Shown in pieces: positions 12,801-59,607 of a DNA stretch of 64,000 nucleotides (within the stretch, counting starts at the first letter, position 1; the number at the start of each line of letters is the position of its first letter). Both the position numbers and the translations under genes were made by a program. A model generated the notes under the pieces. The model did no database searches. It had not been told where the DNA came from and saw only the letters and a list, made by a program, of their open reading frames with translations. The stretch covers positions 297,501-361,500 of the forward strand of contig NZ_CP029820.1 of assembly GCF_003226855.1 (NCBI RefSeq), in the 5' to 3' direction. Origin of the DNA: Blattabacterium sp. (Cryptocercus kyebangensis) (GTDB taxonomy: Bacteria > Bacteroidota > Bacteroidia > Flavobacteriales > Blattabacteriaceae).

Positions 12801-15800
12801 ATGAAAATAGATAAAGTACTTATCCTGGGATCAGGGGCCTTAAAGATAGGAGAAGCTGGGGAATTTGATTATTCTGGAACACAAGCTTTAAAAGCTCTTA
12901 AAGAGGAGGGAATTTATACTATATTGATTAATCCAAATATCGCAACTGTTCAAACTTCGAAAGAAGTTGCTGATAAAGTTTATTTTCTTCCTCTCACATT
13001 TTTTTTTATAAAAAGCGTCATCGAAAAGGAAAAACCAAAAGGAATTTTTCTTTCTTTTGGAGGACAAACTGCCTTAAATTGTGGAATACAACTTTTTAAA
13101 GAAGGAATTATAGAAAAATATAAAATTCAAGTTTTAGGTACGTCTATTGAATCTATAATTCACAGTGAAGATAGAAATCTATTTAGAAATAGGTTAAGTC
13201 GTATTAATATAAAAACGGCAAAAAGCTTTGTAGTCCATTCTATGGATCATGCCATATTCTATTCTTTAAAAATTGGGTTCCCTATTATAATTAGGTCTTC
13301 TTATACACTTGGAGGTTTAGGGAGTGGTTACGCAAAAAATATTCATGATTTAAAGGAAATCGTCAGTAAAGCTTTCTATTATTCCTCTCAAGTTGTTGTA
13401 GAAGAATATTTAGAAGGATGGAAAGAGATTGAATATGAAATAGTTAGAGATAAATACAATAATTGTATTGCAGTATGCAATATGGAAAACTTTGATCCTA
13501 TAGGAATTCATACAGGGGAAAGTATTGTAGTATCCCCATCGCAGACTTTAACAAATTCAGAATATTATGGGTTAAGAAATTTAGCTATCCATATAGCTAG
13601 GGATTTAAAGATAGTTGGAGAATGTAATGTTCAATTTGCATTAGATCCTAGATCGGAAGATTATCGTGTTATTGAAGTGAATGCACGTCTTTCTCGTTCT
13701 AGCGCTCTTGCTTCTAAAGCAACTGGTTATCCATTAGCTTTTGTTTCTGCAAAATTAGCTATAGGATATGGATTGCATGAATTAAAAAATTCTGTGAATA
13801 AAACTACTTATGCTTTTTTTGAACCAGCATTGGATTATGTAGTATGTAAAATTCCAAGGTGGGATCTAAATAAATTTTATGGTGTTTCCAATAGAATTGG
13901 AAGTAGTATGAAAAGTATAGGAGAAGTCATGGCTATTGGAGGTTCGTTTGAAGAGGCCTTACAAAAAGGAATTAGAATGTTAGATATTGGAATGCTAGGA
14001 TTCATAAATTCTAAAAAAAAAATGGGATCTACTCTTTTACTTAAGGAATTTTTGAAAAACCCAACTGATCAAAGAATTCTATTTTTAGAAGAAGCTTTCG
14101 AAAAAGGAATTTCTATCAAAGAAATACATGATCTTACAAAGATAGATCCATGGTTTTTATCCCAGTTGGATAACATATTTCAAACAAAAAAAGAGATTAC
14201 TTCTTATGACGATTGGAGGGATATTCCGGATGAATTATTCCGTAAAGCTAAGCAAGAAGGGTTTTCTGATATGCAAATTGCTAACCTTTTTATTGATAAG
14301 GATAAAGAGAGTATTTATGCTATGGAAGAAAAAATAAGAAAATATAGAAAAAAAAAAGGAATTATTCCATATGTTCGACAAATTGATACTTTGGGGGCTG
14401 AATATCCATCATATACAAATTATTTGTATTTAACCTACCATTCTATTCAACATGACGTTCTTTATGAAAAAGATCATCAATCTGTAATAACTTTAGGATC
14501 CGGAGTTTATAGAATTGGAAGTAGTGTCGAATTTGATTGGTGTTGTGTCAATACATTAAATACTATTAATAAAGAATCTTATAGATCAATAATGATTAAT
14601 TACAATCCAGAAACAGTTAGCACAGATTTTGATGTTTGTGATCGTTTATATTTTGAGGAGATAACTTTAGAACGTGTATTAGATATTATTGATTTAGAAA
14701 AACCAAAAGGAACAATAGTATCTATGGGAGGACAAATACCCAATAACTTAGTTTTAAAACTTTATGAAAAAGGAGTAAAGATTCTAGGAACATCTCCTAT
14801 TTCTATAGACAAAGTGGAAAATAGATATAAATTTTCTAACGCTATGGATGTTTTAGGGATAGGACAACCTAGATGGAAAGAATTATCAGATTTTGATAGT
14901 ATTTATCAGTTTGTAGAAAAAGTAGATTATCCTATATTAGTTAGACCCTCTTATGTTCTTTCAGGTTCGGATATGAATGTTATTTCCAATTATGAAGAAC
15001 TCCAGCATTATCTTCTTCGTAATAAAGAATCGGTTTCTCCTGATCATCCATTGGTGATTACGGAGTTTATTAGAAATGCAAAAGAGATGGAATTAGATGC
15101 TGTTTCTCAAAATGGAGAGATATTGTATTATGCTATATCAGAACATGTAGAATTTGCTGGTGTCCATTCAGGAGATGCGACTTTGGTCTATCCTCCACAT
15201 AATTTATATTTATCTACATTAAAGGAAATCATCCGTATGTCTAAGAAAATAGCAAAATATTTTAATATATCTGGACCTTTTAATATTCAATTTTTATCTA
15301 AAGAAAATGAAGTCAAAGTAATTGAATGTAATTTGAGAGCTTCTAGGAGTTTCCCTTTTGTATCAAAAATATCTCAGTTCAATATGATAGAACTAGCGAC
15401 TCAAGTACTTCTTGGAAAGAAAAAAAAGAAAACGAAACCTAATTTTTTTACTACGAATTTTTTAGGGATAAAAGCCTCTCAATTTTCTTTTTCCCGTTTA
15501 CAAGATGCAGATCCTATTTTAGGTGTGGATATGACTTCAACTGGAGAAGTCGGATGTTTAGGATATACCTTTGATGAAGCTCTTCTAAAATCCATGCTTT
15601 CTGTTGGTTATACTATTCCAAAAAAAAATATTCTGATATCTAGTGGTCCAATTGATTCTAAATTAGATCTGTTAAATATGGTTAAACTTTTGCATAAAAA
15701 AAGATATATATTATTTGCTACAGAAGGAACAAATAATTTTTTATCCGATTGTGGAGTTCCATCAATAAGGGTTCATTGGCCAAATGAAAGAAAATATCCC

Positions 15801-26151: not shown

Positions 26152-27837
26152 ATGAAAAAATCAAATAAATATACAGTAACAGCGGCCTTTCCATATGCAA
26201 ATGGCCCCATACATATAGGACATTTGGCGGGTGTTTATTTACCTGCAGATATTTTTGTTCGTTTTCTTAGACGAAAAAATAAAGAGGTTGTTTTTATATG
26301 TGGGTCGGATGAACATGGAGTCCCTATTACTATACAAGCGAAAAAGGAAAATACGACTCCTAAAGAAATAGTAAACAAATATCATTTCATGATTAAAGAT
26401 AGCTTTACGAATTTTGGAATACATTTTGACAATTATTCCAGAACTTCTACCATTATTCATCACGAAATTTCGACTTCTTTTTTTAAAAAACTCTATCAAG
26501 AAAAAAAAATTTTTGAAAAAGTATCTGAACAATATTATGATAACGAAGCTAAACAATTTTTAGCAGATAGATATATATCCGGAATATGCCCTCATTGTAA
26601 AAAAAAGGATGCTTATGGAGATCAATGTGAAAATTGTGGTTCTTCGTTAAGTTCTGATGAATTAATAGATCCAAGATCTACTATAAGTGGTAGTTTACCC
26701 GTTTTAAAAAAAACCAAACATTGGTATTTACCTTTAAACGAATATCAAGATTTTTTAGAAAAATGGATTTTAACGGATCATAAAAAAGATTGGAAAGTCA
26801 ATGTCTATGGACAATCAAAATCATGGTTAGATCAAGGATTACAACCTCGTGCTATAACAAGAGATCTGAATTGGGGGATTCCTATTCCTTTTTCGGAAGA
26901 ACTAGGAAAAGTTCTATATGTATGGTTTGAGGCGACCATAGGATATATTTCCTCTACTATAGAATGGGCAAATCGTAAAAAAATAGACTGGGAGCCTTAT
27001 TGGAAAGATAAGAATACTAGATTAATTCAATTTATAGGAAAAGATAATATTGTATTTCATTGCATTATTTTTCCAGTTATACTTAAAGCGTGTAATCTTG
27101 GATATATTTTACCGGATAAGATTATTGCTAATGAATTTCTTCATTTAGAAAATGAGAAAATTTCTACTTCTAGAAATTGGGGCGTATGGCTACATGAATA
27201 TTTAGAGGATTTTCCAAATCAACAGGATTCACTTCGTTATATTCTCATAGCCAACATGCCAGAGAAAAAAGATAATAATTTTAATTGGAAAGATTTTCAA
27301 ATAAAAAATAATACGGAATTAGTAGCTATATTAGGAAATTTCGTTAATAGAAGTATAACTTTAATTCAAAAATATAATAATGGAATTATTCCAAATCCTG
27401 GAATCCTATCGATTAGGGATCAATATATTTTAAAAAAAGTAAAAAAATATCCAGAAAATATAGGTAATTTGATTGAATCCTTTCGATTTCGTGATGCTTT
27501 AGTATGTTTTATGGATTTGGCTAGGATTGGGAACAAGTATTTAACAAAAGAAGAACCTTGGAAAGGGCCATCTACTCAAAGAGTAGAAACCATTCTTTAT
27601 GTCTCTTTCCAAATCGTTGGAATGTTAGCGCAATTATCAGAGCTTTTTCTTCCATATACAGCAAAAAAATTATTAAAAATGCTTCGTTTGAAAGCTTTTT
27701 TTTGGAAAAAAATAGAAAATACAGAAGAAATTTTATGTCCAGGACATGTATTGGGGAAATCCATATTGTTATTTAATAAAATAACAAATGAAAATGTTGA
27801 AAAACAACTAAAAAAATTAGAAAAAAGGAATATATGA
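26152..27837 (+). CDS. metG: Methionyl-tRNA synthetase
   Basis: Class Ia synthetase charging tRNA-Met. The HIGH motif is in FPYANGPIHIGHLAG, the zinc knuckle is CPHCKKKDAYGDQCENCG (residues about 144-161), and the KMSKS loop is represented by KISTSRNW, a variant in which the first Met and second Lys are replaced. The alpha-helical anticodon domain is complete (GNFVNRSITL, EPWK). The protein ends at 561 residues without the EMAPII-like tRNA-binding C-terminal domain present in longer forms of about 680 residues. Its stop overlaps the start of the next gene (ATGA). Confidence 0.95.
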   Translation: MKKSNKYTVTAAFPYANGPIHIGHLAGVYLPADIFVRFLRRKNKEVVFICGSDEHGVPITIQAKKENTTPKEIVNKYHFMIKDSFTNFGIHFDNYSRTSTIIHHEISTSFFKKLYQEKKIFEKVSEQYYDNEAKQFLADRYISGICPHCKKKDAYGDQCENCGSSLSSDELIDPRSTISGSLPVLKKTKHWYLPLNEYQDFLEKWILTDHKKDWKVNVYGQSKSWLDQGLQPRAITRDLNWGIPIPFSEELGKVLYVWFEATIGYISSTIEWANRKKIDWEPYWKDKNTRLIQFIGKDNIVFHCIIFPVILKACNLGYILPDKIIANEFLHLENEKISTSRNWGVWLHEYLEDFPNQQDSLRYILIANMPEKKDNNFNWKDFQIKNNTELVAILGNFVNRSITLIQKYNNGIIPNPGILSIRDQYILKKVKKYPENIGNLIESFRFRDALVCFMDLARIGNKYLTKEEPWKGPSTQRVETILYVSFQIVGMLAQLSELFLPYTAKKLLKMLRLKAFFWKKIENTEEILCPGHVLGKSILLFNKITNENVEKQLKKLEKRNI

Positions 27838-28448
27838 GGAATAAATTGATTTTCATATTTTTTTTCTTATTTTTTTCATGTAATAACGAGGATTTTTTAT
27901 TAGAAAATAATTCCAAAAAAAAATTACAAAATAGGAATAATTATTTCCTACTTTATAGAAAAAATATATATAAATATTCATTTTTTAAGAATAGTGTAAG
28001 TAGGATTATTAAAGCTCCTTTGGATGGAGAATTTATAATATTTGGGGATATGAGATCGAGTAACATTAAGAATAAAAAAAAAAAATATAACACTATCATT
28101 TATGGGGTAGGTGTATTTATCAATGATTCCTTAAAATATGAAAATTATTTCAAAGATTTTTTCCATGAGGATAAAAAAAGACTTTCTAAGTTAGACTTAA
28201 AAGGTAATTTTGAATTCAAAATTCCAGTAAAAAAAAATGATAAATTATATTTAAAATATTCTATAAAAAATAGGAATTTCATTCCATCCTCTTCTTTGTA
28301 TTTTTATGAAAATAAAAACTTTTTAAGTAGTGAATGGGATCATATAAAAATTTATTTCAATCCATATGAAAATTATAGCGGAGAGAGAGGGATTCGAACC
28401 CCCGGAGGAATAATAAACCTCAACGGTTTTCAAGACCGCCGCAATTAA
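27834..28448 (+). CDS. Unrecognised predicted lipoprotein; frame runs into the antisense of tRNA-Ser
   Basis: I do not recognise this protein. It has a short hydrophobic leader ending in a lipobox-like FFSC with the lipidated Cys at residue 16 (MRNKLIFIFFFLFFSC), then a Lys/Asn/Tyr-rich, probably beta-rich region of about 165 residues. The reading frame does not stop before the tRNA-Ser gene: about the last 23 residues (from near 182, GERGIRTPGG...) are the translation of the tRNA's complementary strand. The native stop may have been lost or the tail may be dispensable. Translationally coupled to metG through ATGA. It could be a fast-evolving envelope lipoprotein (inference). Confidence 0.6.
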   Translation: MRNKLIFIFFFLFFSCNNEDFLLENNSKKKLQNRNNYFLLYRKNIYKYSFFKNSVSRIIKAPLDGEFIIFGDMRSSNIKNKKKKYNTIIYGVGVFINDSLKYENYFKDFFHEDKKRLSKLDLKGNFEFKIPVKKNDKLYLKYSIKNRNFIPSSSLYFYENKNFLSSEWDHIKIYFNPYENYSGERGIRTPGGIINLNGFQDRRN

Positions 28449-28466
28449 CCACTCTGCCATCTCTCC
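28379..28466 (-). tRNA. tRNA-Ser (TGA)
   Basis: An 88-nucleotide class II tRNA with acceptor GGAGAGA/TCTCTCC, D-arm TGGCAGAGTGGTTAATTGC, anticodon loop containing TGA (plus-strand 28430-28432), long variable arm, T-arm GGGGGTTCGAATCCC and discriminator G. It overlaps the 3' end of the plus-strand lipoprotein frame and lies just downstream of lysA. Confidence 0.95.
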
Positions 28467-56962: not shown

Positions 56963-56972
56963 TTTAATTTTG

Positions 56973-57048
56973 GGTGGAAGACCGGATTCGAACCGGCGCC
57001 CCTCAGAACCACAATCTGATGCTCTAAACCAACTGAGCTACATCCACC
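56973..57048 (-). tRNA. tRNA-His (GTG)
   Basis: Cloverleaf with anticodon GTG (complement at 57010-57012), D-arm TAGCTCAGTTGG, T-arm GCCGGTTCGAATCCGGT and the extra 5' G (G-1) at 57048 paired with C73, the histidine identity element. The sixth acceptor pair is a T-T mismatch, which is a little unusual. Confidence 0.93.
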
Positions 57049-57097: not shown

Positions 57098-58161
57098 TTA
57101 TTGACAAAAACTTTCTATAATTTTTTTGCAATAATAGATAAGATCACTATATATCCACCTTATTATGGCCTCTCTTTCTTGAATAGGATACAAAAGGTGA
57201 ACATTTGCACCTGCATCTAGTGTAAAATAGATGTTTTTTTTGCTTTGTTTTCTAAAATCCCATACTTTATGAAGTACGTGAAGGGTATTCGGTCTCATCC
57301 ATAAAAAATAGGGATTAGAGGTCATGATCATAGCATGAAGATTTAAAGATTCATGTTCTATTAATTCTCCAAATTTTGTAAAATCTCCTATTTTTAATAT
57401 GGATATCAGTCTATCCATATTTCTATTAGCACATTTTAATCTTTCCTTAGCATAAGGATGGTTATTCATTAATTGATGTCCTTTTGAACTTAAAATTTTT
57501 TTAGGTTCTTCATCTATTACCAAAATAGTATCCCCCATTTTTGTAAATATTGGGTGTATCTTATAGGGATAAGGGATAGAATAAAGATTATTACTCCCTT
57601 TTATTGATTTATGTTTTCCCCAAACTACAAGTCCAGGATATATAGATCTACAAGCACTTCCAGATCCTAATCTAGCTAAAAAAGAAGCTTTTTTTAAAAA
57701 AAAATCTTCTTTTAAAGAAGAATCTAATTTTTTTTCTATTTCCATAATACATAAAGCTAAAGCGCTCATGGAAGAAGCAGAAGAAGCAATTCCACTACTG
57801 TGTGGAAAAGTATTATCGGTTTTTATAACAAAATTAAAATATCGCAAATAAGAACAATAAAATGATATTCTATGAAAAAATTCCAAAATTTTGGGAAGAA
57901 AATTAGTTTTTTCTTTTCCAGAAAAGAAAATTCTTATAGATCTTTTTTTTTTTTATCTCTAAGATGATAAATTAGTCTTGTTACCGTGTAAACCTCTCCT
58001 AGAGAATAACTAATAGACGAATTCAACGGTATTTGAATTTTATTTTTTTGTTTCCCCCAATATTTTATTAGAGCTATGTTTGAATGGCTCTTTTTGGTTA
58101 CTACTCCATTTGAAACTATAGAATAGTTTTTTTTCTTATAAAAGAAACAATTACTTTTCAA
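57098..58161 (-). pseudogene. mvaD: Diphosphomevalonate decarboxylase, split by an A12-tract frameshift (possibly still expressed)
   Basis: Final mevalonate-pathway enzyme making isopentenyl diphosphate, a GHMP-fold kinase. The first frame (from 58161) gives KSHSNIALIKYWGKQ, PLNSSISYSL and ends ...HLRDKKKKDL at a TAA. The continuation RSIRIFFSGKEK, then DNTFPHSSGIASSASSMSALAL (GHMP ATP loop), LGSGSACRSIYPGLVVWG and FTLDAGANVHLL lies in a second frame to 57098. Both meet at a run of twelve A's (57943-57954); 13 or 10 would join them into about 354 residues, the family size. The start is odd too: no ATG is available in frame and the best candidate is TTG at 58161. All catalytic blocks are conserved. 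Confidence 0.87.
57943..57954 (-). repeat. A12 tract (T12 on plus strand) at the mvaD frameshift
   Basis: Longest A run noticed inside a gene here. Between GAT and the codons for RSIRIFFSG in mvaD. One more A (or two fewer) restores the frame. Confidence 0.9.
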
Positions 58162-58197: not shown

Positions 58198-59607
58198 TTA
58201 TAAACCGTTATCACGGTTTTTTTTTATATAATCTAACATTTTTTCATCATCTAATTCTCCTTCGGAACGAGCAATGACGCAACTAGCTAATCCGTTTCCT
58301 ATAACATTTACGGTAGTACGAGCCATATCCATTAATTCATCTATTCCTATAATCGCTAATATAGGCCAAGTAGGTAGACCAAAAGAAGAAACAGTTGCTA
58401 AAAGAATTACTAAAGAGGCTCTAGGGACTCCAGCCACACCTTTACTAGTTAAAATTAAAGTTAAACCTATAAATATTTGCTGACTAAAACTTAAAGGGAT
58501 TCCAGAAGCTTGCGCTACAAAAACAGTGGCTAAAGATAAATAAAGAGTAGTTCCATCTAAGTTAAAGCTATAACCTGTAGGAATCACAAAAGCAATAATT
58601 TTCCTTGGAACACCTAATTTTTCTAAATTTTCCATAAGAAGGGGTAAAGCAGATTCGGAACTTGTAGTGGCAAACGCTAATGATACAGGCTCCATTAAAG
58701 CTTTTACAAATCCCCTTAAAGGAACTTTAATCCATAAAAGAATGGGAAATAAAACCACTATCAAAAATATTAACAAAGCAATATAAAGTGTAAATAATAA
58801 CTGAAAAAGATTATATAATATATCCAAACCCATATGTCCTACTGTATAAGCTATAGCAGAACCGACTCCGATAGGGGCAAAATACATGATTATCTTAGTA
58901 AATTTAAACATGATCTCTGAAATACTCTCTGTAAATGACAATATAGGTCTACGTTTTTTTTCATCTAAAAAAAGCATAGATATTCCGAAAATTACGGAAA
59001 AAACAACAATAGGCAATACATCTCCATGATATATAGATTTAATGAAATTTTCTGGAAATACGTGAAGAATGGTATCTTGCCAAGTTTTACTTTCTACTTT
59101 TGGAAATTGATGTGAAGTTATTCCTGAAGGCATAACAATTCCCACTCCAGCTTGAGAAACATTAATGGCAATAAGACCAATGAACAAGGCTAAAGTAGTA
59201 ACTATTTCGAAATACAATAAGGATTTCCACCCCATACTTCCTAATTGTTTAATGTTAGAGTGACTGGCTATACCAACTACCAAAGTGGAAAATAATATTG
59301 GAGCTATAATAGTTTTTATAAGTCTCAAAAATATTTGAGATAAAAATCTCAATTCTACAGCAATTTCAGGGTGATCTATACCGAATTCTATTCCTATGAT
59401 TATGGATAATAAGATCCAAGTGGTTAAGTCTTTTTTCAAAAAAGCATAAAATATGAAAATAGAAATAACGAAATATCTAAACAGGCAAAGAGTTAATTTA
59501 TCTAATCCAAAAAAGTTTTTTGATAAGTGAATAAACACGTATGCGAAAAAACTTAAAAATGCTATTAGTAAAATTTTTTCTTTTTTTACTTTCATTCCAA
59601 TACTCAT
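58198..59607 (-). CDS. Dicarboxylate/amino-acid:cation symporter (DAACS family)
   Basis: Inner-membrane symporter importing glutamate, aspartate or C4-dicarboxylates with H+ or Na+. Eight or so membrane segments and two re-entrant loops; motifs TSSESALPLLMENLE (HP1), GYSFNLDGTTLY (TM7), SKGVAGVPRASLV (HP2) and GIDELMDMARTTVNVIGN (TM8). I start at ATG 59607 (469 residues). The longer open frame back to 59799 is spurious because it crosses the tRNA-Gln gene. Substrate cannot be decided from sequence; glutamate uptake (gltP-like) would supply the nitrogen donor of the pathways seen here (inference). Confidence 0.88.
   Translation of the reverse strand: MSIGMKVKKEKILLIAFLSFFAYVFIHLSKNFFGLDKLTLCLFRYFVISIFIFYAFLKKDLTTWILLSIIIGIEFGIDHPEIAVELRFLSQIFLRLIKTIIAPILFSTLVVGIASHSNIKQLGSMGWKSLLYFEIVTTLALFIGLIAINVSQAGVGIVMPSGITSHQFPKVESKTWQDTILHVFPENFIKSIYHGDVLPIVVFSVIFGISMLFLDEKKRRPILSFTESISEIMFKFTKIIMYFAPIGVGSAIAYTVGHMGLDILYNLFQLLFTLYIALLIFLIVVLFPILLWIKVPLRGFVKALMEPVSLAFATTSSESALPLLMENLEKLGVPRKIIAFVIPTGYSFNLDGTTLYLSLATVFVAQASGIPLSFSQQIFIGLTLILTSKGVAGVPRASLVILLATVSSFGLPTWPILAIIGIDELMDMARTTVNVIGNGLASCVIARSEGELDDEKMLDYIKKNRDNGL

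Follow-up and report, generated by a model that had tools for sequence, protein, structure and literature searches.

The window analyzed here, a stretch of 64,000 nucleotides with a GC content of 28%, belongs to the 637 kb genome (G000) of a Blattabacterium, the endosymbiont of cockroaches, and contains mvaD on the minus strand (58161..57098), in which the reading frame changes at a tract of twelve A's (A12; 57943..57954, minus strand, equivalent to T12 on the plus strand). A dicarboxylate/glutamate symporter gene of the DctA/GltP family (58198..59607, minus strand), which is intact in 21/21 genomes compared and served as a control, lies upstream, and tRNA-His (56972..57047, minus strand) lies directly downstream. 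The 5′ part of mvaD (57934..58161, minus strand) comprises 75 codons from a TTG start to a TAA at 57936-57934, contains the KYWGK substrate motif, and has the C-terminal end RDKKKKDL before the stop; the 3′ part (57098..57952, minus strand) is open from the tract to a TAA, spanning 284 codons with the first TTG at 57886, and contains the ATP-binding motif PHSSGIASSASS, GSGSACRS, and the catalytic motif LDAGANVHLL. The 0-frame at the tract reads AGA GAT AAA AAA AAA AAA GAT CTA TAA, with the stop 6 nt past the tract.

The halves differ in frame by a single indel within this long homopolymer, neither contains a further stop, and the gene is uninterrupted in one frame in the nearest relatives, G001 and G042. 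The split in the assembled sequence is real, beyond chance, and its placement at the A12 tract in the earlier note was borne out by both reading frames and by these relatives. In total, the window contains 19 A/T runs of at least 10, of which 16 are within long open ORFs and two are outside ORFs near gene ends; the mvaD tract was the only one of the 19 seen to break a recognized gene.

Profile searches matched the 5′ ORF to MVD-like_N (positions 1-42) and TIGR01240 (positions 4-48), and the 3′ ORF to MVD-like_N (81-151), MDD_C, and TIGR01240 (87-294), with each of the separate TIGR01240 matches under the full-length cut-off; the 3′ part also matched PDB 3lto (E 4e-30). The two ORFs match consecutive regions of the profiles and so belong to one diphosphomevalonate decarboxylase, of which they are the two parts. 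The motifs for substrate, ATP, and catalysis (KYWGK, PHSSG.ASS, and LDAG) are all kept, in agreement with the previous claim that the GHMP loop and catalytic motifs were retained.

Recurrence of out-of-frame mvaD and mvaK across the genus

The comparison set consisted of 49 genomes of the genus, namely the window genome and 48 sisters, and mvaD was kept in all of them. Seven of the 49 were out of frame at the mvaD tract (G000, G044, G005, G029, G019, G041, and G008), and mapping this state onto the 49-genome tree required five changes, indicating at least five origins. Two of these changes involve sister pairs with a common out-of-frame state, G005/G029 and G019/G041, which received support of 99 (SH-aLRT) and 100, respectively, in a tree of six neighbouring proteins; a tree of the mvaD protein only paired G005 with G031, and the six-gene pairing with G029 was adopted. 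The G000 frameshift is private to that genome, with G001 and G042 both in frame. The longest A run at the tract ranged from 4 to 16 among species, the motifs flanking it were 273-285 nt apart among in-frame relatives, and the region is a lysine-rich stretch tolerating indels. All split alleles of mvaD and mvaK need one added base to restore the frame, except mvaD of G005/G029, where the correction runs the other way. An eighth mvaD split, in G011 (locus L049), falls in a separate A10 just 5′ of the KYWGK motif and stands apart from this comparison of directions. The mvaK match of that genome has one in-frame stop near its end and a prenyl synthase match was not found; because of these three features together, the isoprenoid pathway may really be decaying in the G011 lineage.

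The start codon was the second irregularity named in the earlier note, which counted the lack of an ATG alongside the A12 split. Only the split stands as such. The TTG at 58159..58161 (minus strand) is common to the genus, with an ATG at the same position in G045 and G008; the KYWGK frame has TTG and no ATG upstream in most of the 49 genomes, and the pattern ATT-TTG-AAA is widespread. TTG is therefore the normal start of the gene and no sign of damage, and the absent ATG was ruled out as a second defect of the G000 copy.

The mevalonate-kinase-like GHMP kinase gene mvaK, intact in G000 (G000:C1:81095-82033; loci L080-L127 in the other genomes), had lost its frame at a tract of A10 or A11 in 17/49 genomes, always one base short, and the A10 tract was out of frame in 15 species; the split genomes fall mostly within one large clade. 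Among control genes, nadK was split in 0/49 genomes, prenyl synthase, for which G011 and G040 gave no match, in 1/47, and the seven genes of the neighbourhood in 1/147 cases. The frequent splits in mvaK and mvaD and their rarity in controls thus make two enzymes of one short pathway stand out. Split alleles always had at least 10 A's (p 0.015 for mvaD and p 2.6e-5 for mvaK, in statistics that ignore kinship), and the absence of AAG within the tracts was at chance level once codon bias was taken into account (P 0.13 and 0.08). Because mutation is also more frequent in long tracts, and missing AAG codons fit chance, selection for an uninterrupted tract is not claimed.

HMG-CoA synthase and reductase are absent from the G000 genome, in agreement with a published model in which the host is the source of mevalonate (PMC3819652). 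G000 keeps the mevalonate-kinase-like GHMP kinase, MvaD, a type I isopentenyl isomerase (Idi), and a prenyl synthase; the genes for the latter two are intact, and the MvaD product therefore still has users. Two matches to a type II isopentenyl isomerase were rejected as other FMN-domain-like proteins, the second of which reads as dihydroorotate dehydrogenase. Second, partial prenyl-synthase-like matches were observed in G004 (G004:C1:356439-356840, 83%) and G035 (G035:C1:358929-359249, 48% identity to the G000 protein), each ∼2 kb from the main gene. Gene losses were also seen elsewhere: the undecaprenyl-diphosphate phosphatase gene uppP of G001 (L059, G001:C1:340000-359999, around 14015-14867) occupies two frames and contains a stop, with the gene whole in the 20 other genomes of that comparison, and, within the syntenic 20 kb, truB was not found in four genomes (G044, G008, G015, and G033) and rsmG was absent or broken in three (G030, G015, and G039).

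Selection on the two halves

Pairwise codon-model estimates for the sister genomes G019 and G041, both split, gave an omega of 0.055-0.056 in the 3′ half (2dlnL vs omega = 1 of 141-146; dS about 0.9) and 0.17-0.18 in the 5′ half (2dlnL vs omega = 1 of 9.5-9.8). Over a dS of 0.88, neutral evolution would be expected to put 47.8 stops into the 3′ half of this pair, and none was observed; the reading assumes that the defect was inherited from the common ancestor, which is the simpler interpretation, not a proven one. For G005 and G029, also both split, omega was 0.10 in the 3′ half and 0.04-0.08 in the 5′ half, and the neighbouring genes were mostly at 0.02-0.12. The short 5′ half in G029-G031, a pair with one split member, gave 0.56, indistinguishable from neutral. 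In split mvaK pairs omega was 0.01-0.23 in both halves for nearly all, with some synonymous distances near saturation; the short mvaK 5′ half in the close pair G016-G017 gave 0.42, with no difference from 1. On these estimates, purifying selection acts on both mvaD halves in the split sister pairs, and by the same measure mvaK in the split genomes is under purifying selection. The relaxed constraint and further lesions that mark a pseudogene were found in none of the omega values, stop counts, or branch counts. A dN/dS near 1 across both halves, named in the earlier note as the outcome that would speak against its preference for selection on the protein, was not seen against the related genomes, and the low values in both halves of the split pairs bear that preference out.

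On the G000 branch itself, the nonsynonymous to synonymous counts were 3/6 for mvaD and 37/75 for the controls, the same ratio in a test of low power. Since the frameshift is private to G000, the normal selection recorded on this branch may predate it. The gene could then have been inactivated recently, being already dead with its decay still unmarked, and host isoprenoids or residual pools would suffice. Single genes have been lost elsewhere in the genus in a compatible way, including rsmG in G015, G030, and G039, truB in four genomes, and uppP in G001, as has the prenyl synthase, with no copy found in G011 and G040. However, the out-of-frame states common to two sister pairs remain under strong constraint, both G000 halves have counts like those of the controls, and 0/49 genomes have lost mvaD, a recurrence without loss that is unlike ordinary decay; recent inactivation is accordingly considered unlikely, although it fits the private origin of the lesion.

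Proposed slippage, competing mechanisms, and known systems

A sequencing or assembly error at the A12, or a mixture of genome copies differing in tract length, would leave the resident gene largely in frame. The tract is a long homopolymer known here from the consensus assembly, its length differs among species, and error could explain any single genome, G000 included. Against this, the intact control ORFs (21 genomes) contain 27 A/T runs of at least 10, several in split genomes, and every one is in frame; the mvaD defect is common to sister species; mvaK is out of frame at its A10 in 15 species; and PMC6039017 likewise lists mvaK of the P. fuliginosa symbiont among pseudogenes. Because the control runs are in frame and the splits are shared by sisters and genus-wide, error cannot, on these comparisons, explain the pattern as a whole, and we regard it as a rather improbable account of the mvaD split.

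The reading favored here, held to be likely, is that mvaD is an active gene and that part of its products is brought back in frame by slippage at the A tract. The length error of one base would affect an A tract that encodes lysines and lies where changes in length are tolerated. RNA polymerase would slip on the A12, adding one A or losing two, so that a fraction of the mRNA would be in frame and yield full-length enzyme while the remainder would terminate just past the tract. With a low isoprenoid demand in the endosymbiont, reduced MvaD output would be tolerated, and because of this tolerance length errors would arise repeatedly and persist, selection meanwhile purging changes in both halves. 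Slippage, how efficient it is, and the small need for isoprenoids are our inferences. In frameshifted genes of aphid and ant endosymbionts, 12-50% of transcripts were corrected at poly(A) (PMC5009743), and in Buchnera transcripts most errors at A/T runs insert a single base and increase exponentially with the length of the run (PMC5574713). Against slippage, the latter study reported no Buchnera case of frame restored by transcription error, and the mvaD copies of G005/G029 would have to be corrected in the other, less common direction. The decay in G001 of uppP, another isoprenoid-related gene, also counts against this reading.

The same protein product would also result if ribosomes shifted frame by −1 at the A-rich codons (AAA AAA or A AAA AAC). 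The re-reading of one base is what all split alleles need except mvaD of G005/G029 (G011 aside), and the mvaK splits mostly have GAA AAA AAA AAC in the 0-frame, which contains the A AAA AAC heptamer. On the other hand, the 115 nt of RNA downstream of the G000 tract folded no better than shuffled sequences (z −0.48), and neither folding nor Rfam returned a recoding structure 3′ of that tract; the base following the tract is not constant (C, G, or T), the opposite shift required in G005/G029 departs from a constant −1 direction, and the endosymbiont precedent is transcriptional. Recoding by the ribosome is thus given a slim chance. More speculative still is that the out-of-frame mvaD and mvaK tracts are more than tolerated damage and form an adjustable brake, with the slipping fraction as a selected level of expression; if so, tract length would set the output of the lower mevalonate pathway from host-supplied mevalonate. 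It is hardly credible that each half is translated on its own and that the two products combine into a functional enzyme, since, although the break lies within an indel-tolerant and probably exposed stretch and G000 has an in-frame TTG soon past the tract, no start codon is conserved 3′ of it (in G008 and in G019 the 3′ frame contains none within its first 45 codons) and the 5′ part with the KYWGK substrate motif would need to act in trans; internal initiation past the tract was ruled out for lack of a usable conserved start.

Transcriptional rescue of poly(A) frameshifts has been shown by experiment in Buchnera and in Blochmannia (Tamas et al., 2008; Wernegreen et al., 2010, both as cited in PMC3017870, on Blochmannia vafer, and PMC5009743). 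The mvaD case shares with these an AT-rich obligate insect endosymbiont, one length error in a long A tract, conservation of both halves, and retention of the frameshift across species, here in the two mvaD sister pairs and widely in mvaK. Unlike those gammaproteobacterial examples, the mvaD split is hosted by a member of the Bacteroidota; it also has at least five to six separate origins and is accompanied by mvaK splits of the same pathway in 17/49 genomes. With dnaX-type programmed −1 frameshifting, mvaD has in common the A-rich lysine codons and a direction that suits most split alleles, whereas there is no stimulatory structure near the G000 tract, the direction in G005/G029 differs, and no functional shorter product is apparent. 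The mvaD frameshift, which looks ordinary by itself, proves recurrent and constrained in comparison and is probably rescued by slippage, adding a well-replicated new example to the Buchnera and Blochmannia kind.

How long genes survive out of frame while relying on copying errors is a question so far studied in few Buchnera and Blochmannia genes, for which this genus gives many natural replicates. Within it, mvaD alleles that are in frame, that need +1, or that need −1 occur side by side, their tracts varying from 4 to 16 A's, and mvaK is split in many cockroach lineages; slippage as a function of tract length could thereby be quantified directly in existing fat-body RNA. Related endosymbionts of the Flavobacteria type likewise have genes labelled as pseudogenes, some by frameshift: PMC3971599, on Walczuchella, holds that genes frameshifted in homopolymers may still work, and PMC6039017 calls mvaK, metG, gltX, and dnaN pseudogenes in Periplaneta symbionts. 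The cited portions of both papers contain no selection tests on the halves, whereas the mvaD halves of Blattabacterium are both constrained; "pseudogene" calls in such genomes, and the metabolic models resting on them, may be wrong. Elsewhere in the window, a 204-codon ORF (27834-28448) also contains an A12 (28074-28085); it has no Pfam match, extends into tRNA-Ser on the opposite strand (28378-28466), and is possibly either another frame change or a chance ORF.
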